64,000 nt of DNA from Chitinophagales bacterium (GTDB lineage Bacteria > Bacteroidota > Bacteroidia > Chitinophagales > Chitinophagaceae). The notes beneath the pieces are model-generated. The model saw nothing but the letters and a program-made list of their open reading frames with translations. It made no database searches and was not told where the DNA came from. Below are positions 8,041 to 62,371 of this stretch, piece after piece. A program made the position numbers and the translations under genes. Where the stretch lies: assembly GCA_017303395.1 (NCBI GenBank), contig JAFLBN010000012.1, positions 1 through 64,000 of the forward strand, in the 5' to 3' direction. How positions within the stretch are numbered: the first letter of the stretch is position 1; each line of letters begins with the position of its first letter.

Positions 8041-9008
8041 GCAGAAACAGGTAGCATTATCTCGAAAATGCAGCCTGAAGGCACATTATCCATCACGGCT
8101 ATCTTACCATTGTGCTGTTTTATGATTTTTGATGTTAGGTATAAGCCCAATCCTGTACCTTTAGATTTACGGGTTTCTTCATTGCCTATACGGTAAAACT
8201 TATTGAATACCTTGCCCTTCTCAGCATCAGGTATACCGGGTCCATTATCGGCAATTTGTATTACCGCACTGTTATTTTTCAGTTGCAGGCTTATTGTTAC
8301 GGGTTTATCGGCAGGTGTATACTTTACAGCATTTTCCAGCAGGTTGTTCAACGCCATTTGCAGCAGCAGTTTGTCACCATTCAATTGACAAGTTTCTATT
8401 GTGTTTGCAATAAACCTACCAGGGTATCTTGCTGCATAGTCTTTTGTGCTGCTCTGCAACAACTCGTCCAACTGCAGCACTTCTCTTGCAGGCACATATT
8501 GCCTACCCTCCATCTGTGAAGCTATCAGCATATTGTTACACAAATCATTCAACCGATTGGCCTCCTTCACACAACGGTCTATCAGCATGGACTTTTTTTC
8601 TTCATCAAGCTGGTGCCGCTCCATGGTTTGGAGATTCAACTTCATGGCAGCAATGGGCGATTTCAGTTCGTGTGTTACAGACAACATAAAATTATTTTGT
8701 TGTCTTGATAGCCTGATGCTTCTGCGGAATGAACTATAAACAACTGCTGCACCAATTAATATTACTAAGAGGAATGTAGAGCCCTCTCCCAGATATTGCT
8801 TTTCATCTGTGTTTAGTTTAGCCTTCAGTTGCTGTATACGTGAATTATACATTTCAGGATACTGTGCACTGTCTACTTCTGTTTTCAGAATGGCTACACC
8901 CTGATTATAAATTTCAATACTTTTCCTGTTGAGGCTGAAACCCCAAAATACAAGTGCTGCTACAATGTATGTCAGCAACAATAAGTGAACAGTAGTAAAA
9001 AAACGCAT
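8037..9008 (-). CDS. Orphan membrane sensor histidine kinase
   Basis: Two-component sensor kinase. TM1 (about residues 8-26) and TM2 (about 78-92) flank a short periplasmic segment of about 50 residues. The HisKA domain has its phospho-acceptor H113 in [13 protein letters not shown]. The HATPase domain follows, with N-box [14 protein letters not shown]1 box [13 protein letters not shown] and G2 box [12 protein letters not shown]. All catalytic boxes are intact. No response regulator is in the window, so its partner is unknown. It follows gldH by 15 bases and may be cotranscribed with it. Confidence 0.92.
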
Positions 9009-54476: not shown

Positions 54477-55154
54477 TCAACAATTTTCGTTCTCAGTGAA
54501 ATTAATTTCTATCTGATTATCAAGCTGTACAGACCTATACTTCTTATCTGACATATATTTCCAAATACCGTAGTCAACTGTTGTTCTAGATAGTTGTAAA
54601 AAATCAGCAGCATATTCTACAACTCGTTTTGTCACGTGATAACCTTCGACATTAATTTCGGCCATTTGAACAAAAGAATATATATGCCTATCAACTGCTA
54701 CAGTATCAAAGCATAATAACTTCATCAAATAATCCATTGTTTTAGGCCCGACACCTTTTAACTTGAGGAATGTCTTTTGATTTATTGTCTTTAATAGATA
54801 AGTCTTTAAATCAACACAATTATCAATCTCATTATCTATTGAAAAATCAATTAGTAGTTTAAACCTGTCAAGTTTTACTTCATCTTTCCAGTTAATGACA
54901 TTGCCGAGGCCTTCCTGGTCAATTAATGCCTTAAATCGTTTAACAGTATTTGCATCAGGATAATCTAAAAGAACTTTCTGCACCCTAGGCTTTACTACCG
55001 AGTTATAATTTAAACCTGCTTGCAATATAATATCAGTATATAGAGCTCCTATGTGGCTATAATGGAATTGGCTTTGTACATCATAAGTTTGGAAAGTCCC
55101 CCCCAAGCTTATAATGTAATCTGCAAGTTTTCTAGCTTCTTTAGCGCAGTTCAT
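54477..55154 (-). CDS. OGG-like HhH-GPD DNA glycosylase/lyase
   Basis: 225 residues of the helix-hairpin-helix glycosylase superfamily. The hairpin LKLKGVGPKTMDYL includes K138, aligned with the catalytic Lys of 8-oxoguanine glycosylase (OGG1 K249 in GVGTKVADC), and D155 in VAVDRH matches its catalytic Asp. No iron-sulphur cluster cysteines are present. An OGG-like protein (Cap11) is an ancillary part of type IV CBASS together with a QueC-like protein, and here too the gene directly follows a QueC-like gene (6-base gap). Its target, DNA, RNA or a modified nucleobase adduct, is unknown. Confidence 0.82.
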   Translation of the reverse strand: MNCAKEARKLADYIISLGGTFQTYDVQSQFHYSHIGALYTDIILQAGLNYNSVVKPRVQKVLLDYPDANTVKRFKALIDQEGLGNVINWKDEVKLDRFKLLIDFSIDNEIDNCVDLKTYLLKTINQKTFLKLKGVGPKTMDYLMKLLCFDTVAVDRHIYSFVQMAEINVEGYHVTKRVVEYAADFLQLSRTTVDYGIWKYMSDKKYRSVQLDNQIEINFTENENC

Positions 55155-55160
55155 AATATA

Positions 55161-55793
55161 TTATGCTTCCTGTTCTATTTGCCTTAAAGCTTCCAATCTA
55201 TCGACACAATTAGGACAAGCCCCACATGGTATAGTTGGTGAAGCTTGACACGAAAAAGTAGTCCCTATTGATGCTCCTAGCTCAATACCTAATTTAGCTA
55301 CTTGATATTTAGAATAATATCGAAATGGCATATTTATTTTTACAGAGCCGTAATCAATAAGCATACTTTCCATTTTTTCAAAAAACTCGTTAGAACAATC
55401 TATTTCCTTAGCATGATTGCTATTTATAAAGGCAGAATAGACATTTGTCAAACCGATTGTTTGTGCAAAAGTAGCACCTATAGTCAATAATAAAACATTT
55501 CTATAAGGAATATAGAGATTATCTGCCGTTATTTCGTCCTCCCATAAATTGGCAGCTCTTATAAATTTAGAATTAGATTTCTGATAAACTGATTGAATAT
55601 CAATAACCTCAATTTTGTCAATATAGGATTCAGGTAATACCTTTTTTAGAGTATTTAGTTCAGTTTCGGCGCAATGTTGGCCATAATTGATAAATAATGG
55701 CACGAAATCAACATTTTGGCTTATCAGCCAATAAGCCATAGTTGTTGAGTCTAATCCCCCAGAGGCTAGAAGAATCCCATCTCGATTTGTCAT
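55161..55793 (-). CDS. QueC-like PP-loop ATPase (Cap9/QatC-type candidate)
   Basis: 210 residues. PP-loop LLASGGLDSTTMAYWL (S11-S16), FINYGQHCAETEL and LYIPYRNVLLLTIGATFA match QueC. The zinc site is complete with C182, C190, C193 and C196 (SCQASPTIPCGACPNC). True QueC turns 7-carboxy-7-deazaguanine into preQ0, but no QueD, QueE or FolE is nearby. QueC-like proteins in defence systems (Cap9 of type IV CBASS, QatC of Qat) are reported or proposed to attach a deazaguanine to a protein N-terminus. It overlaps the fusion gene by four bases. Confidence 0.87.
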   Translation of the reverse strand: MTNRDGILLASGGLDSTTMAYWLISQNVDFVPLFINYGQHCAETELNTLKKVLPESYIDKIEVIDIQSVYQKSNSKFIRAANLWEDEITADNLYIPYRNVLLLTIGATFAQTIGLTNVYSAFINSNHAKEIDCSNEFFEKMESMLIDYGSVKINMPFRYYSKYQVAKLGIELGASIGTTFSCQASPTIPCGACPNCVDRLEALRQIEQEA

Positions 55794-57112
55794 AAATTAA
55801 GTTTTGAAGCAGCGATAAACACCTCAGCTATTACTTCATCTAAGTTTGATGTTACTAAACGAGGCAATTCGGTCAGCATACAATTGGTTGCTCTGTTATA
55901 TGGATCATATACAATTGTAGGTAATCCCTTAGCAGCAGCTAACCCTATTTCAATTAAAGTTCCTGGATCGTCATATAACAGTACAGCAATTAATATAGAA
56001 CACTCATCAAACATTTTCATGTCTGCCGAAAATATCTCTTGTTTCCTTGCTTTTGTAGCATCAAACGCCATTTGACCATTTTCTTCAATAGGTCTACGTG
56101 GTTTAAAATTGTGATACCTCAAACTATCAACCAATATATTTATTGGTTTAGTATCCACAAAATCAAAATCTGGGGCAGCTATATATATATTAATATTGTT
56201 TCTTTTTTCCCAAGGCAATGAAACGCCTTCAATGTTGACTAAGTCTGTAACTTTAGATTGTATCACTCTAGCAACACCTTTTTTAAAGTCATCTGGATAT
56301 GTTGTTATGGCATATTCAGTCGCAATCCAAGATGACAATACCATAGCATCCTTTAAAGACTTTTCATGATATTGGCTTACAAAAGCAGCACAATACACAT
56401 CACCAACCCCTACTGAGTGTATTATAGGCTGAGTTTGAGCATTTGAAACAGTTACTGCCTTTTCTAAAAAGTCATATCCTCTACTACCGCCTCTATTTTC
56501 TTTTAATATTATTCGCTTTGTTTTATTTTCAAACTGACCAGTAAATCCTAAAAAAGAGTCATCATAGCTTGCTTTAAAAATATCAGAAGATGTAGAAATA
56601 AAAATTGTTTCAAGTTTGCTTTTAAGATCACAAAGACTTGCAATATCTTTAATGTTATTCGCAACATCAATATGAATCTTACCTGATAGTTGATTAGCTA
56701 ATTTGACAAGATCATAATTTCCTGATATAAGCAAATAATCATTGTGTACTTTTTGAAATAAGGATTCGCAATTGCTTTCATTATATTCAATTTGTATCTC
56801 GTCTCGTAAAAGCAGCTCATATCCTTGATCTCCTATCTCCTTAGCCTCCTCAATCAAAAAGACATATGGTGAGCCAACAACATTCCCAATTTTAATGATG
56901 TCAGTACAACCAAGAGAATTCAGATAATCATGAATTTGAGCATCTAGATATGACGGAGCGAAATACCCTACAGAGAAAGGGATATTTAAAGCCCATAAAC
57001 ATCTTGCAGCATGGACAATTCCTCCCATTCTGAGTTTAGTCTCGGAATTTGCATCTTTTAAAGTAACGTCAACCACAACATCACCTATTAGGCATATATT
57101 GCTTTGTGTCAT
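55790..57112 (-). CDS. PfkB-type kinase fused to nucleoside 2-deoxyribosyltransferase-like domain
   Basis: 440 residues in two domains. Residues 1-295 resemble PfkB/ribokinase: ICLIGDVVVDVT, KLRMGGIVHAARCLWAL, and the catalytic GVGD (235-238, D238) in HSVGVGDVYCAAF. Residues 307-430 resemble nucleoside 2-deoxyribosyltransferases: IYIAAPDF, RRPIEENGQMAF, FDECSILIAVLLYDDPGTLIEIG, with E388 as the likely nucleophile. Such a pair could phosphorylate a nucleoside and cut or swap its base. ATGA overlaps with both neighbours tie it to the Met-Gly protein and the QueC-like enzyme. The fusion is unusual and its substrate is unknown. Confidence 0.83.
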   Translation of the reverse strand: MTQSNICLIGDVVVDVTLKDANSETKLRMGGIVHAARCLWALNIPFSVGYFAPSYLDAQIHDYLNSLGCTDIIKIGNVVGSPYVFLIEEAKEIGDQGYELLLRDEIQIEYNESNCESLFQKVHNDYLLISGNYDLVKLANQLSGKIHIDVANNIKDIASLCDLKSKLETIFISTSSDIFKASYDDSFLGFTGQFENKTKRIILKENRGGSRGYDFLEKAVTVSNAQTQPIIHSVGVGDVYCAAFVSQYHEKSLKDAMVLSSWIATEYAITTYPDDFKKGVARVIQSKVTDLVNIEGVSLPWEKRNNINIYIAAPDFDFVDTKPINILVDSLRYHNFKPRRPIEENGQMAFDATKARKQEIFSADMKMFDECSILIAVLLYDDPGTLIEIGLAAAKGLPTIVYDPYNRATNCMLTELPRLVTSNLDEVIAEVFIAASKLNL

Positions 57113-57480
57113 ACTGGAACAATATCAACAAATACTGAAGGTGTTGGAACTAACGAAGTGCTTTTTATAACACCAGCATATTTAAATCCATCATCAATAC
57201 ATAATTTAATATAATTGAATTTGGTTGGTAAATATCCGATCTCTTCTCCTTTTAAAGTTTCAACTGAAATGCGTACACCATTAAAAAATACAGTGACTTC
57301 CGTCCCAGAAGTAGGTAGATTTCCTGTGTTAAGGTAATAAAAGCATCTACTCACTTCTTCCAATGAGCATTCAAAGGCTTGTCCACACTTATCTTTACCG
57401 CTTGAACCCCCAGTATTCCCACCATCGGTCGGCTTTCGTTTTGAGTAATCAGTAAAAGAACCTGTTCCTGTACTTCCCAT
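57109..57480 (-). CDS. Small protein with Met-Gly N-terminus, candidate modification target (QatB-like in spirit)
   Basis: 123 residues: MGSTGTGSFTDYSKRKP, then a Gly/Ser-rich flexible segment to about residue 29, then a compact domain from KCGQAFECSLEEVSRC onward with C32, C38, C46 and one more Cys, ending in VPTPSVFVDIVPV. After Met removal the N-terminus is a free glycine on a flexible tail, as expected for a protein modified at its N-terminus. I recall no named family with certainty. It is first of four translationally coupled genes. Confidence 0.75.
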   Translation of the reverse strand: MGSTGTGSFTDYSKRKPTDGGNTGGSSGKDKCGQAFECSLEEVSRCFYYLNTGNLPTSGTEVTVFFNGVRISVETLKGEEIGYLPTKFNYIKLCIDDGFKYAGVIKSTSLVPTPSVFVDIVPV

Positions 57481-57495
57481 AGTTTTAGATATTTA

Positions 57496-58008
57496 TTAGC
57501 GGTTAAATATAGATAGTTTATTTTTTTGTGCTACTGTAGTTGGCAAACATGGTTTGCAAATTTCTGCTATATTCCTATCTGTCAACAAGTCTTTATTACT
57601 ACTACCTCTGTAAATCTTGGGTTTGTTAGCAGCAGGCTTAAAAAAAAGTGAATGTCTGAAGTATGGATAAGCTCTACTATCTAAAGAGCAAATTAATTTG
57701 CATTGAGATTGAATTAATAGTCCTATTAAGTGCTGGTCGTCGAAATTTGCGTGTTGGATCATAGTTGATACTTCATCAGCTTTTTGATCTACTTTACTAT
57801 CATCTACACCGATAGCCTTTGTTGCTTTCCGAAGTTCTACAAAGATTGGCAAATACTTTCCTAGCTCTTTTTTATACTTAGTTCCACCATATACAATTAC
57901 GCCTTTTCCATTTTTTATCCAGTCATATACAGGTTTAAACTCTGAATGATTAACGGACTCAGGCTCTAATACACTAGCGAGTGTGTTTGTATCAATAATT
58001 ATACACAT
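57496..58008 (-). CDS. PIN-like nuclease domain protein
   Basis: 170 residues. The start MCIIIDTNTLASVLEP gives the first PIN acid (D6) and DTN signature. The region ADEVSTMIQHANFDDQHLIG has the middle acids, and KLICSLDSRAYPYF the late strand acid, so a metal-dependent RNase fold is likely. The C-terminal 35 residues are basic. It lies five bases after the AAA ATPase gene and 15 before the Met-Gly protein gene, so it may be the nuclease arm of an ATPase-nuclease pair or of the whole cassette. Confidence 0.75.
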   Translation of the reverse strand: MCIIIDTNTLASVLEPESVNHSEFKPVYDWIKNGKGVIVYGGTKYKKELGKYLPIFVELRKATKAIGVDDSKVDQKADEVSTMIQHANFDDQHLIGLLIQSQCKLICSLDSRAYPYFRHSLFFKPAANKPKIYRGSSNKDLLTDRNIAEICKPCLPTTVAQKNKLSIFNR

Positions 58009-58013
58009 AGTAT

Positions 58014-59306
58014 TTAAATAGACAATAAATTAAGCTGTTCATTAATAAAAAAATCTCGAAACGCATCAGGTTGGTTTTCTGGGTATGATCCATTTTCTTG
58101 GATAGGGATTGTTATTAGCTCATTTCTATTTTCACTTTTACTAAAAAAAACCACTTGACTAATTGATTCTGCTGAAGATTTTTCTTCTTTGAATGCTCTA
58201 TTAATTCTTAATCTAAACCTATCAATAATGTAATCGCTATGTGTTTCGATAATGAACTTTTGATTTTCTAAATCATTTGATTTATAAATGAAATCGCCAA
58301 AAGCAGCCTGAGCCTTTGGATGCAAATGAATTTCTGGTTGCTGCATTGCAAACCAAGAATTATTCGGACGTGCAATCGCTTCGATTAATAATGGTAATAT
58401 TTGTGATATCCCGTACCCAACATTCATGATATTGTGCAACTTGGATTTTATCTTAATCAGAATCTCAAATGTATCATTAGATAACTCCTTTATATTTATT
58501 TCCTCATAAAGACCGCTATCATGCCCAAATCGATTTAATATTTTTCTAGTATCCTCATGTGGTAATATTTCTTTTAACACTGACGGAATATGACCACCTT
58601 CAGGATTGAATATTAGACCTCTAAACTCATATACTTTCCTCGGCTCCGCTCTTACGGGAGCCATCCAAGCAAGAGTCCTGAGAAATGATGGACGTGTTAT
58701 TTTGATAGATTTGATATCAATATCTGCTTTTTGTGTTTCATTTAGGCTGTTTGTAACAACAGATTCTAATTGATTCAAGATTGGCAATATGCCACCAGAT
58801 TCGATCTCAATCCGTTCAAAATTTAGATCATTCAAATTTGAGTTTTCAATCCAGGATTTGAAGAATTCTATATCCTCTTTCTTTTGCAATTGATCTTTTT
58901 CAATATTATACCTATACTTTAATATTGATCCTTCAAGAATAACTTGGATACTTACAATATCATTCTTAAAACTTATTTCTTTTAAGGTGGGATAGTTGTC
59001 GTTATTAATAAACCTTAGCTTTATTGCAGAAAATGATGTTCCATCGTCTGTTGCATCTTCTAACATCCCTATTTCAAAATAGCTTTTTTCTTCGCTAGCA
59101 ATTTCTGAATAGCCCCCAAGAAATGTTCCATCTTCAATTAAACCAAACTCTTTATATCTCCAAAACCCTTGAGATGAAATAATTCCAAGTAATTTTAAAA
59201 GAGATGTTTTCCCTGTACTATTTTCACCTACAAAAAAATTGACTGGTCTGAGCGGCAAATACGTTGATTTGAAGCCTCTAAAATTGTCGATATAAATGAC
59301 AGGCAT
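58014..59306 (-). CDS. OLD-like AAA ATPase, DUF3696 type
   Basis: 430-residue ABC-type ATPase without membrane segments. Walker A GENSTGKTSL (K33), the signature-like GYGISQILPLLIEA, Walker B AMQQPEIHLHPKAQAAFGDF and the H-loop FIIETHSDYIIDRFR are all intact. The tail GSYPENQPDAFRDFF resembles the DUF3696 end. No TOPRIM nuclease is attached, unlike OLD/GajA. Similar ATPases pair with separate nucleases in many defence systems, and a PIN-like gene follows at five bases. Confidence 0.86.
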   Translation of the reverse strand: MPVIYIDNFRGFKSTYLPLRPVNFFVGENSTGKTSLLKLLGIISSQGFWRYKEFGLIEDGTFLGGYSEIASEEKSYFEIGMLEDATDDGTSFSAIKLRFINNDNYPTLKEISFKNDIVSIQVILEGSILKYRYNIEKDQLQKKEDIEFFKSWIENSNLNDLNFERIEIESGGILPILNQLESVVTNSLNETQKADIDIKSIKITRPSFLRTLAWMAPVRAEPRKVYEFRGLIFNPEGGHIPSVLKEILPHEDTRKILNRFGHDSGLYEEINIKELSNDTFEILIKIKSKLHNIMNVGYGISQILPLLIEAIARPNNSWFAMQQPEIHLHPKAQAAFGDFIYKSNDLENQKFIIETHSDYIIDRFRLRINRAFKEEKSSAESISQVVFFSKSENRNELITIPIQENGSYPENQPDAFRDFFINEQLNLLSI

Positions 59307-59398: not shown

Positions 59399-61252
59399 CT
59401 AGACCCAGTTTTTTATTAAGCCTCGAGTTTTATTATTTGGTTCGTATTTATCTTCAATCTTACCAATATCAATTACAACTGGAACTTGTGCCGCTAAACC
59501 TGCTAATATGCAAGTACCAGTTGGCAATATAGGTAAGTATTCAAACGACAATTTATCTAGATATGAAATAGTCTTTTCAACAGCTAGAATATCATTATTA
59601 TTAATTAAACGATGTAAAAAGTAGTTGTGTAGTTGTGAAATAATAGTCGCAGAAATATCTGAGGGTCTCTGGCTAGCAATTGTAAGAAACACACCAAATT
59701 TCCTGCCTTCTTTAATTATTTCTTCAAAGGTTTCTAATCTATAGTCCTTCCATTGCTCACTTTCTCTATCAGAATTTCTAGATAAGATATTATGTGCTTC
59801 ATCTACTATAATATTCAAATAAGATGTTTCATCATTTCTAGCTTTTTGTTCATCATATAATTGCTTACACAACAATAGTGGCAATATTTTTCTCATGTGG
59901 ATATTAACATCCTTTAATGAGACAACAGTGATATTTTTACTAAGACTTACACTATCATTAATATCTATTACCTTTCTAATGTCTTCAAATCTCTTTTCCA
60001 TTCTCTTAATTAAAGGAGACAGGTGTTCTCTATTTGCGTGTCCTTTAATAATATCATCATAGTACTGGATTACTATTTGCAAGCGTAGTTTATCTAAGGA
60101 ATTTAAAGAAACTAAGGAAATATCTATTGCATTTAAATCATTTGATACGTAGGATCTCATGTCAGCTTTCCATTTCCAATTTCCTGATTCCGGTTCAATG
60201 TATACAAACTCGTTGCCTTGATTGTAATATTGTAGGTTTTCTCTTAATCGATCTCTTACTAATGAAACATTTGAATTCGGAAGGCTGTTTTCAATGTCAG
60301 ACAGAAAGTCAATGATAACTTTTGAACCCAGTTCTTTATCGTTCTTATCTAATGCAAGAATAAGCTTTGACTTTATTAACTCTAGCATAGAAGCATTGTC
60401 ATTTAGTTTCTCGGCTAAAAAACTATTTGATAATGCTCTTCTAATGAATGGCGTTTGTGTTTTTTCTGTAGCCTCTAAAATTACAGACCAAAAAGAAGGT
60501 TCATATAATGCTTCTGAAGAAACAGGATATTTATCTCCATTCCCTTTAGTAGATAATTTGTAAATGTTCTTATATTCTTTATCAATAATAACATTGTCAT
60601 CTTCATCTACATATTCTCCATTAAAGTCTATCAAAAAGAACTTTGCATTTTTTATAAAATTAGGATTATCACCGTACTTTTTAAATAGCTCTCTATACAA
60701 TTTCGCTAATGTATAGGACTTCCCACTTCCAGTGTTTCCAAATATTCCGATGTGGCTTGCAAACATACAATCAATTCCTACTAGGATTTCTTGTCCTTTT
60801 TCAAGGGTTAGAGTTCCTATTGAAAGAGGTTCATCGTCCTTTCTAATAAAATCGTGTACTTTGTTAAATTCATCTCTATCTAATAAGTAACATTCATTAT
60901 CTATCAATGGCATTTCTTTAATACCTCTCTCAAATTCTTTCCCACTAAAAAAACCTAATAAGCTTATATTTAAAGACCTACTAATTTTTTCCTTATCGCT
61001 TGAATATTCTTTCGTTGAATATACTTTATCTTCTATTGTATACTCCCCTTCTACCTTACCAATAATGATAGTAAATCCTTTAATAATCTTTATGTAGCTT
61101 CCAACTGATACGTTTTTTATTAAATCACCTTTATACAATAAATGTGAACTATTTTTTGATTTATCTACAGTTACACGAATAGACCTACCATCAACAGATA
61201 TCACTCTGCCTATACGAAAAATAGAATCCTTAACAGTTGATTCTTCTTGCAT
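59399..61252 (-). CDS. HerA-like ATPase of a SIR2-HerA defence pair
   Basis: 617-residue hexameric HerA/FtsK-type ATPase. An N-terminal HAS-barrel-like domain (about residues 10-75) precedes Walker A GIFGNTGSGKSYTLAKL (K178), Walker B LNIIVDEAHNIL and TIASQRPSDIS, with an arginine-rich LHRLINN segment after it. In known SIR2-HerA systems the HerA hexamer scaffolds SIR2 subunits, and the complex depletes NAD or cuts DNA upon phage infection. It follows the SIR2 gene by three bases, so a fixed ratio is likely. Confidence 0.9.
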   Translation of the reverse strand: MQEESTVKDSIFRIGRVISVDGRSIRVTVDKSKNSSHLLYKGDLIKNVSVGSYIKIIKGFTIIIGKVEGEYTIEDKVYSTKEYSSDKEKISRSLNISLLGFFSGKEFERGIKEMPLIDNECYLLDRDEFNKVHDFIRKDDEPLSIGTLTLEKGQEILVGIDCMFASHIGIFGNTGSGKSYTLAKLYRELFKKYGDNPNFIKNAKFFLIDFNGEYVDEDDNVIIDKEYKNIYKLSTKGNGDKYPVSSEALYEPSFWSVILEATEKTQTPFIRRALSNSFLAEKLNDNASMLELIKSKLILALDKNDKELGSKVIIDFLSDIENSLPNSNVSLVRDRLRENLQYYNQGNEFVYIEPESGNWKWKADMRSYVSNDLNAIDISLVSLNSLDKLRLQIVIQYYDDIIKGHANREHLSPLIKRMEKRFEDIRKVIDINDSVSLSKNITVVSLKDVNIHMRKILPLLLCKQLYDEQKARNDETSYLNIIVDEAHNILSRNSDRESEQWKDYRLETFEEIIKEGRKFGVFLTIASQRPSDISATIISQLHNYFLHRLINNNDILAVEKTISYLDKLSFEYLPILPTGTCILAGLAAQVPVVIDIGKIEDKYEPNNKTRGLIKNWV

Positions 61253-61255
61253 ACA

Positions 61256-62371
61256 TCAATCTATTTTATCAACTAGTTCTTTGAATACTTTAGTGTTAAT
61301 AGCCTCAAAATCATAATACTCTCCGGTGGCAGGTTCAAGAATATCAATATTATTATAACGTAATATTGAATTGCACTTTTTTATATTTTCCTCGATATTT
61401 CCTTTTGATGGTGCATCATACGCTAGGATCTTAATTACTAGTGTTGGATTTGAATTTGCGGCTCTTACGATAATTTCCCGTATGTGCTCGTCAGACAATG
61501 AAAATCCCATAATAAACAAAATTGTATTTTCTTTCTCCATTTCATTGGAAAACACACGCAACAGTTCATAATAATATAAATTCAAAATTGTGTCATGAAA
61601 TTTTTCCTTTGTGGGATCAACAACAGTGAGTGTATCAAATTCGTTTAAAAAATCTGTTATAGATGAATCATGTGGCATACCAATAACGTCTCTCTCAAAT
61701 TCAGCAAATGTGGTGGTAGTAGTAAAGTCAATCACTTTTGATTTTATAAGTTCCCATTTCGAGTTGATTAAAGCAATACTATTTAGTTGGGAATACAGTA
61801 TTTTATCTTCTTTAGATTCCCAAGTTAATGAACCGTGAACTTTCAATAAATTAAAGACAGGGATTTCTGAAGTATTATCATAATGCAGGCTTTTTTTGAA
61901 AAACGATTTCTTAAAATTTGTTAAACTGAAGATGGGATTAAATCTACCATAGAAACCATCGTTGTATTCTAGTTGAGTTTCTTCCAAAGCCTTTTCAAAA
62001 AAAACATCAATATTTGTAGTAAATAGATTTACTTGTTTATTGAGTATTGTACTTTTTCTTTTTAGTACGATCGTATTAAGATTGACAAGAAAGGTCTTAT
62101 AATTTTCGAGGACTTTTGTTTTATTGGTTTCTATTATAGCATCGTCGATAATCGAAGGATTTTGTTTGATTACATTTTCAAAGTATTTACCCAGGATTGA
62201 CGCTCTAATAATCTCCTTTTTCTTAATGTCAAGATTAGTGTTTCGACTTAAATCTGTTAATAGTAATTCAACGTTTGCTAAAGTTGTAAAATATGGGACA
62301 GATAAGCCCGATCCAACTAAAAAGTTAATGTTACAGTCTTGTATGACATCTTTAAGCTTATCAATTTGCAT
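61256..62371 (-). CDS. SIR2-like NADase of a SIR2-HerA defence pair
   Basis: 371 residues. The NAD fold has FLVGSGLSVPYF near the N-terminus, LFTTNIDVFFEKAL (the TQN-ID site with Thr-Thr-Asn) and the catalytic H179 in LLKVHGSLTW. The late LFIMGFSLSDEHI is typical of SIR2_2 defence proteins. These hydrolyse NAD rather than deacylate proteins. Pairing with HerA fits the published SIR2-HerA anti-phage type. The gene lies 30 bases after a membrane-protein gene. Confidence 0.9.
   Translation of the reverse strand: MQIDKLKDVIQDCNINFLVGSGLSVPYFTTLANVELLLTDLSRNTNLDIKKKEIIRASILGKYFENVIKQNPSIIDDAIIETNKTKVLENYKTFLVNLNTIVLKRKSTILNKQVNLFTTNIDVFFEKALEETQLEYNDGFYGRFNPIFSLTNFKKSFFKKSLHYDNTSEIPVFNLLKVHGSLTWESKEDKILYSQLNSIALINSKWELIKSKVIDFTTTTTFAEFERDVIGMPHDSSITDFLNEFDTLTVVDPTKEKFHDTILNLYYYELLRVFSNEMEKENTILFIMGFSLSDEHIREIIVRAANSNPTLVIKILAYDAPSKGNIEENIKKCNSILRYNNIDILEPATGEYYDFEAINTKVFKELVDKID

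Follow-up and report, generated by a model that had tools for sequence, protein, structure and literature searches.

A tailed small protein, PfkB-NDT and QueC-like cassette as a candidate defence-type protein-conjugation module

Four coupled genes in a Chitinophagales contig

The window analysed here, a stretch of 64,000 nucleotides from a Chitinophagales bacterium (GCA_017303395.1, contig JAFLBN010000012.1, positions 1 to 64,000 of the forward strand), contains a cassette of four minus-strand genes that encode: a small protein with a Gly/Ser-rich amino-terminal tail; a fusion of PfkB and nucleoside 2-deoxyribosyltransferase (PfkB-NDT); a QueC-like enzyme; and an OGG/EndoIII-like helix-hairpin-helix (HhH) glycosylase. 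An earlier note on this DNA had described these genes as coupled, and the layout is confirmed: the junctions are, in gene order, a 4-base overlap, a second 4-base overlap and a 6-base gap. The gene set, gene order, tail, catalytic residues and context are read directly from the DNA.

The small protein (57109..57480, minus strand, 123 residues) starts MGSTGTGSFTDYSKRK and consists of a conserved tail, MGSTGTGSFTDY, followed by a Gly/Ser linker and a domain. The tail corresponds to codons 1-12 of the gene (57445..57480, minus strand), and its Gly2 is the proposed acceptor in the chemistry considered below. The only Pfam match of this protein is to CorC_HlyC, below threshold (E 0.22), and a PDB sequence search returned nothing useful, the best hit (0.009) being to scattered pieces of an S-layer protein.

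PfkB-NDT (55790..57112, minus strand, 440 residues) contains D238 in the GxGD motif of PfkB and E388 in the NDT part, which are conserved in 98% and 99%, respectively, of 100 sequences (one of them from clade 2, see below). Its NDT domain (residues 309-412; 55877..56188, minus strand) matches PF05014 (E 2.3e-12) and, as a four-row profile, PDB entry 6evs (E 4.1e-8), while PfkB matches PF00294 below the cut-off (E 0.015). The OGG-like protein (54477..55154, minus strand, 225 residues) has zero Pfam matches; a four-row profile matches the 3-methyladenine DNA glycosylase 1pu6 (E 0.0012) and the 8-oxoguanine DNA glycosylase 9o00 (E 0.0047), and K138 and D155 are intact in the window and 100% conserved in 91 sequences. 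The conserved PfkB, NDT and OGG residues presumably have the catalytic roles known from their families. Judged by these matches and those given next, the gene names hold, on strong scores for QueC and NDT and on weak scores for PfkB and OGG.

The QueC-like protein (55161..55793, minus strand, 210 residues) matches PF06508 (E 6.7e-36), has PDB matches to QueC (2pg3 and 3bl5) and Cap9 (9nto), and contains the motifs SGGLDS, YGQH, PYRN and NSNHAKEIDC together with a zinc-type CX7CX2CX2C pattern. Across 101 QueC-like sequences (100 from clade 1, one from clade 2), conservation is 97-100% at the SGGxDS, YGQH, PYR, NSNHAKExDC and Cys sites. The NSNHAKEIDC loop (55395..55424, minus strand) corresponds to the YxDC base site of Cap9: the Asp (Asp132) and Cys are kept, and Glu130 replaces the Tyr of Cap9 and QueC. 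The protein is not a canonical QueC, since it scores 101.2 bits against TIGR00364 (cut-off 150.3) and is thus below equivalog level, has EIDC in place of YPDC and shows no linkage to queD or queE in tblastn with one query each. A PADLOC scan of the window recovers both QueC (4e-27) and OGG (0.0021).

Two clades of the cassette

Relatives of the cassette were collected from plasmids, genome contigs and viral contigs. A tblastn search with the PfkB-NDT protein matched 7 plasmid records, 4 of them over more than 80% of the query, and three of these four were taken; among genome contigs a four-protein QueC-like profile matched 104 relatives, of which the best 80 entered the set, and it added 16 loci from viral contigs. 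Together with the window these make up the 100 loci of clade 1, which is spread over several phyla of bacteria and also occurs on plasmids and in phage contigs. Searched with four-sequence profiles, the 100 loci show PfkB-NDT in 99, the small gene in 97 and OGG in 91. With core genes present in 97-99 of the 100, the proviso of the earlier note that the genes might not be co-conserved elsewhere can be set aside. In cassette order, the gene pairs are separated by junctions of 30 bases or less in 97/97, 99/100 and 90/91 cases, which are best-case counts because the nearest in-frame start codon was taken, and the junction seen most often is an overlap of 4 bases (35, 60 and 24 pairs). The conserved gene set and order exceed chance, and the cassette is a real, widespread module. 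No match to PfkB-NDT was found among 50,697 phage records, and a Kosakonia query, the only one used, gave no clade-1 DNA match in Escherichia coli.

The departures from this arrangement are few. Locus L084 is rearranged: a truncated dGTPase frame runs straight into QueC (8447-9000), and neither the small gene nor PfkB-NDT was found there. L071 is truncated where its contig ends, and in L030, close to the start of the contig, the PfkB-NDT frame is short. Two loci (L102 and L105) are without OGG because their contigs end first. OGG was also not found in 7 Bacilli loci, one of which (L048) has about 600 bases of contig left beyond QueC, and in 6 of these 7 a NUDIX gene lies just upstream. Given its absence from the Bacilli loci, OGG is an accessory gene of the cassette. 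PfkB-NDT and QueC are encoded in a single open reading frame (ORF) of about 660 residues in four Bacilli loci (L042, L044, L045 and L048).

The tail of the small protein shows a mean pair identity of 0.72 over residues 1-12 in a 73-row alignment, as against 0.29 for the linker and 0.38 for the domain. A start codon followed by Gly2 is seen in 96/96 readable clade-1 tails (94 ATG, 2 GTG), where residues 1-4 were read after anchoring on positions 5-12 only. L084, L030, L071 and L100 were left out of these counts; L071 and L100 are at contig ends, and L100 holds the 97th small protein, which is cut and hence has an unreadable tail. Residue 3 is Ser in 94 and Thr in 2 of the 96, and the consensus is MGS[ST]GxGxFxDY. 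Six positions (M1, G2, C32, G82, C94 and G103) are constant across all 73 rows. The profile used was built on four tail-bearing proteins, and its matches extend over the entire domain. The Met-Gly start noticed in the window is therefore a near-invariant feature of a partner encoded beside QueC, and from its Gly/Ser content the tail is predicted to be flexible.

Clade 2 was reached through a PfkB match at 27% identity to a locus (L107) in which a small gene between OGG and PfkB-NDT is missing from the gene table of the record. The QueC of this locus matches 49 plasmid records, 24 of them with an identity of at least 42%, among them records from haloarchaea and a cyanobacterium. The clade-2 set comprises 18 loci (L107, L109-L123, L126 and L127), drawn from: 11 of the 24 plasmid records; both of two viral loci; 3 of 22 E. 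coli genomes; and two relatives of the window genome. L113 and L121, whose DNA is identical across the query, are each counted as a separate locus. In a 50-row QueC tree, clade 1 (99/96) and clade 2 (100/100) each form one side of a branch, and Cap9 lies on a long branch of unsure placement. The signature CH(x)5CxxCxGCxK is present in 10 of 12 aligned clade-2 rows, by which clade 2 is identified with Cluster 4 of PMC13329287. In 22 of 5,426 complete E. coli genomes there is a match to clade 2, which in 18 of the genomes covers most of the query; all the matches lie on the chromosome, and the three loci examined adjoin integrases, one of them beside tRNA-Sec.

A small protein with a Gly/Ser-rich tail precedes PfkB-NDT in 18/18 clade-2 loci, residue 2 being Ser in 14, Gly in 3 and Cys in 1. 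The small domains of the two clades are homologous (hhalign probability 96.6, E 5.4e-10), and the haloarchaeal proteins (L115, L116 and L119) carry the domain twice. The tail of L119 is a long acidic stretch of about 190 residues.

In addition, a homologue of the SagB family of peptide dehydrogenases follows QueC in 12/18 clade-2 loci (L107, L109-L113, L118, L120-L123 and L127). Five of these were scanned against TIGR03605, with E-values of 2e-15 to 3e-5, all below the family cut-off, and the genes are partly unannotated or labelled as nitroreductase or dehydrogenase. No SagB-like match was found in the clade-1 loci at 1e-4. Other genes near clade-2 QueC include: OGG (13/18), whose HhH part aligns with that of clade-1 OGG (probability 87.8, E 3.3e-6); dGTPase (6/18); and a D12-type DNA adenine methylase-like gene (6/18). 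In clade 1, 11/100 loci from distant groups (TM6, Bacteroidales, Bacilli, Rhizobiales and Marinobacter) have a dGTPase 11-587 bp away. OGG and dGTPase are thus recruited by both clades. The clade-2 module of Synechocystis (L111) is adjoined by a multiubiquitin-domain protein and a ThiF-family gene (1-2243).

Proposed base conjugation and its alternatives

Conjugation of a nucleobase to a protein has been shown in the type IV cyclic oligonucleotide-based antiphage signalling system (CBASS) and inferred in Qat (PMC11996544, PMC13279940). In type IV CBASS, Cap9 and CdnD are the parties to an N-terminal deazaguanylation (PMC11996544), the base being attached by Cap9 to Gly2 of the sequence MGGS (PMC13279940). 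The cassette resembles this system in encoding a compact QueC-like enzyme beside a Met-Gly protein with a Gly/Ser-rich tail, and the clade-1 tail consensus is similar to MGGS. In one control type IV CBASS locus (L124), which also has a QueC-like gene, the CD-NTase, annotated as a CBASS cyclase, starts MGGSGGGFFSNSD, and the cassette tail MGSTGSGSFSDY is near to this. The base-reading Asp, the RN/RT residues and the zinc-type Cys of Cap9 are likewise conserved. OGG is an ancillary CBASS protein, which is reflected in the PADLOC OGG model, and this is a further likeness. The cassette differs in that its tailed partner is a small unrelated domain, PfkB-NDT is added, the base-site Tyr is Glu and the QueC clade is separate.

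The earlier note had seen no CD-NTase and no TGT-type gene, and this holds on a wider scale: the CD-NTase of L124 and its neighbour, which we take for Cap10 by position only, have no tblastn match at 1e-4 in 101 loci (1.55 Mb), with one divergent query each, and hence with limited sensitivity. A PADLOC scan of 8 window proteins also found no CD-NTase. A hidden CBASS was set aside, as the loci gave no match to either single query. By analogy, NDT may stand where CBASS has its TGT.

Qat shares with the cassette a QueC-family enzyme and a dedicated partner whose Gly N-terminus is disordered (MGTS in QatB; PMC13279940, PMC13329287), and both Gly2 and parts of the QatB tail are required for defence (PMC13279940). 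In contrast to the 210-residue QueC-like protein, however, QatC has about 400 residues, with extensions at both its N and C termini, and has lost both base-reading residues (PMC13279940), and QatB is alpha-helical. Neither KAP (QatA) nor TatD (QatD) was found among 9 window proteins scanned, so the window does not qualify as qatABCD. With Cluster 4 the window shares an operon of PfkB-NDT and QueC, but the window clade has CX7CX2CX2C and NSNHAKEIDC and is without the CH(x)5CxxCxGCxK signature. PfkB-NDT adjoins Cluster 4 in about 89% of neighbourhoods, which was read as purine salvage (PMC13329287). The terms glycosylase, dGTP and small protein are absent from the main text of that paper, and SagB and tail-protein partners are unmentioned in the portions covered. 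The open literature, taken without bioRxiv and with few subscription papers, gave no recognisable account of a small tail protein with PfkB-NDT and QueC.

The reading that we favour, by a modest balance of probability, is that the cassette is a mobile protein-conjugation module of the defence type, in which the QueC-like enzyme would drive N-terminal conjugation of the small protein and PfkB-NDT would act on a (deoxy)nucleoside; each of these reactions is inferred from sequence. Met is removed before Gly, Ser or Cys as an established rule. The small protein would thus be made with a Met-Gly start and then lose its Met, and the QueC-like ATP-pyrophosphatase would activate a guanine-like base with ATP and link it to the free N-terminal amine. 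That the N-terminus of the small protein serves as the substrate of the QueC-like enzyme is quite probable; that the attached group is a guanine-like base is an evenly balanced proposal; and its identity as 7-deazaguanine is doubtful. The NDT part would then shift a (deoxy)ribosyl group onto or off the base and the PfkB part would phosphorylate it, although a role for the fusion on the sugar of the attached base is offered tentatively. OGG, NUDIX and dGTPase may be add-ons of guanine (deoxy)nucleotide chemistry, with dGTPase feeding deoxyguanosine or starving the phage and OGG or NUDIX clearing a modified nucleotide out of the DNA or the pool. The SagB homologue of clade 2 is as expected if the substrate is a peptide. 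The favoured reading also draws on the tight co-conservation of the genes, the invariant Gly2 in a tail more conserved than the rest of the protein, the likeness to the CBASS and QatB tails, the homologous tail protein of clade 2, the kept guanine-edge Asp, the dGTPase genes of both clades and the defence families in the flanks.

A bolder version, which we consider improbable, is that a nucleotide is built on the protein. The QueC-like enzyme would add a guanine-type base, perhaps not 7-carboxy-7-deazaguanine (CDG), to the N-terminal Gly; NDT would add deoxyribose from deoxyguanosine, supplied by dGTPase where one is present; PfkB would add the 5'-phosphate; and in clade 2 the SagB-type flavoenzyme would oxidise the tail. 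The product, a protein with a tethered deoxynucleotide, could be a decoy, a chain-ender or an insert in phage nucleic acid, which OGG or NUDIX would remove.

Several observations weigh against the favoured conjugation reading or parts of it. The bacterial tails of clade 2 mostly start with Ser and not Gly. Of the Cap9 base-site residues described in PMC13279940, the guanine-edge Asp is kept in every row of an alignment of 29 clade-1, 12 clade-2, 1 Cap9 and 7 canonical QueC sequences, but in these same 49 rows clade 1 has Glu and clade 2 has His in place of the Tyr that does the stacking in Cap9 and QueC. The clade-1 loci are not independent, as many are near-identical copies, including several from Rhodobacterales and viral contigs. 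The searches assigned no fold to the small domain: its pattern G..IGxLP...C...G..Y.G.V resembles that of HIRAN, but only 2 of 73 members match HIRAN (best E 0.14) and 29 relatives gave no HIRAN protein, which leaves a HIRAN fold as a mere candidate.

Substrate supply is a further difficulty. In a sample of 45 carrier genomes, 22 have a canonical QueC above the TIGR00364 cut-off, and the cassette QueC is below that cut-off throughout. The 23 genomes without canonical QueC divide into 12 with a PF01242 (QueD/PTPS) match and 11 with none. Some of these 11 are metagenome-assembled genomes and one, GAM79, is complete; TIGR04508 has 0 matches in them, and a QueE query from Clostridia has no match in 6 and matches at 4e-10 to 7e-4 in 5, which may be other radical SAM proteins. 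Because 11 of the 23 lack QueD and QueE matches are weak or absent, host-made CDG is unlikely as a general substrate; it looks available to some carriers only. QueD-like and QueE-like genes without QueC above TIGR00364 occur in 11 carriers (L108/G000, G001-G004, G006 and G009-G013). The proposal in the earlier note of an attached deazapurine accordingly keeps its footing in the conserved guanine-edge Asp and loses some in the Glu at the stacking position and the many hosts without a CDG route. Possible alternative sources include: imported deazaguanine; amidine formation from preQ0, as is known for Gat-QueC; and lactam activation of a plain purine, a reaction that occurs in GMP synthetase and TilS.

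Another explanation, unlikely in our view, is that PfkB-NDT and the QueC-like enzyme produce a modified deoxyguanosine nucleotide, which is then incorporated into the DNA of the phage or of the host, with OGG and NUDIX cleaning up, dGTPase lowering competing dGTP, and the small protein serving as carrier or regulator with its tail as a QueC docking peptide. The accessory genes, whose products act on guanine nucleotides or on DNA, are accounted for in this way: OGG is present in 91/100 and 13/18 loci of the two clades and dGTPase in 11/100 and 6/18, NUDIX lies just upstream in 6 of 7 OGG-less Bacilli loci, and the D12-type methylase-like gene occurs in 6/18 clade-2 loci. The invariant start codon and Gly2 and the SagB-type peptide dehydrogenase of clade 2 are, however, left unexplained. 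The search for a DNA base-exchange enzyme, made with the one Cap10 query, had no match, and the exchange of NUDIX for OGG may be one event, as it is confined to one class, the Bacilli.

Purine (deaza)salvage, as printed for PF06508 Cluster 4 (PMC13329287), appears less probable again. PfkB and NDT are salvage-type enzymes, and in one locus (L107) a gene annotated as VUT family (queuosine salvage) lies close to the module. Against salvage, the tail protein is present in 18/18 clade-2 and 97/100 clade-1 loci, and the modules turn up sporadically on plasmids, in phage contigs and in islands next to defence genes. A VUT transporter as a general substrate source was rejected, since the L107 protein matches no other locus at 1e-4.

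Finally, a queuosine-pathway remnant, or a spare QueC making preQ0 for tRNA, is very improbable and was rejected: FolE, QueD-like and QueE-like genes are encoded in the genome from which the window comes (100% complete), with no QueC above the TIGR00364 cut-off, as such a remnant would suggest, but 22 of the 45 cassette genomes also have canonical QueC, 11 of the 23 without it lack QueD, the cassette QueC itself scores below the cut-off, and QueC absence is normal in the window's lineage, where 56 of 59 genomes have no full-length QueC-family match. Single queries for QueD, QueE and FolE gave no tblastn match within the 101 loci, so that the lack of queuosine genes claimed for the window is true of the neighbourhood and not of the host genome.

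These results add two further separate QueC clades, each with a dedicated tail protein and a shared PfkB-NDT, in bacterial phyla and on haloarchaeal plasmids. The tail proteins and SagB partners suggest that the Cluster 4 neighbour pair may be part of a conjugation module. If this is true, N-terminal base tagging would be a common immune chemistry, and the purine-salvage reading of Cluster 4 would change. The Glu/Asp and His/Asp base sites, the CDG-less hosts and the SagB-type partner point to unseen bases or tail chemistry.

Defence neighbours and upstream genes

The flanks of 101 loci, with 1,196 called ORFs, were surveyed for neighbouring genes, and in 18 genomes 120 of 183 flanking ORFs (of at least 150 residues) were set against a control of 120 ORFs out of 235, taken from a single distant region in each genome. 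PADLOC families at E <=1e-20 number 40 in the flanks and 2 in the control regions, which agrees with the defence islands in which the earlier note proposed to look for the set; these tallies are of families and not proteins, and as the control family mad3 covers 4 ORFs (and mad2, 2 ORFs), the kinds of defence genes differ clearly and the protein numbers less so, which tempers the defence reading. The flank families, among the 25 listed and with 1-2 ORFs each, include: type I restriction; AbiEii; 2TM effector; dGTPase; reverse transcriptase-NUDIX; NsnB (the AAA neighbour); PDC-S25; and PbeA. Genes for a phage portal, a terminase and DUF6441 are also seen in 8-12 loci, which come from viral contigs and from the genomes of Rhodobacterales. 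Full-length QueC-family genes occur in only 3 of 59 genomes of the window's lineage (that of the window and two clade-2 modules), which shows the modules to be sporadic. An anti-phage role of the cassette is likely.

In the window, two genes lie directly upstream of the small gene: a PIN-like protein (57496..58008, minus strand; gap of 15 bases; PF13470 E 0.0094, below cut-off) and, 5 bases further, an AAA_15/AAA_21 ATPase (58014..59306, minus strand) whose best PADLOC match is NsnB-like. The same pair is upstream in five loci (the window, L012, L013, L014 and L029). On the strength of the four other loci, the unit in the window is probably one of six genes, with the AAA ATPase first, the PIN-like gene second and then the cassette, so that the four genes described earlier do lie together but are probably part of a larger unit. 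In the window, the AAA ATPase and PIN-like nuclease are likely to act as effector or trigger. The cassette is also adjoined by a HerA helicase and SIR2-like pair (59399-62371) with strong PADLOC matches, which is probably a separate SIR2-HerA defence system.

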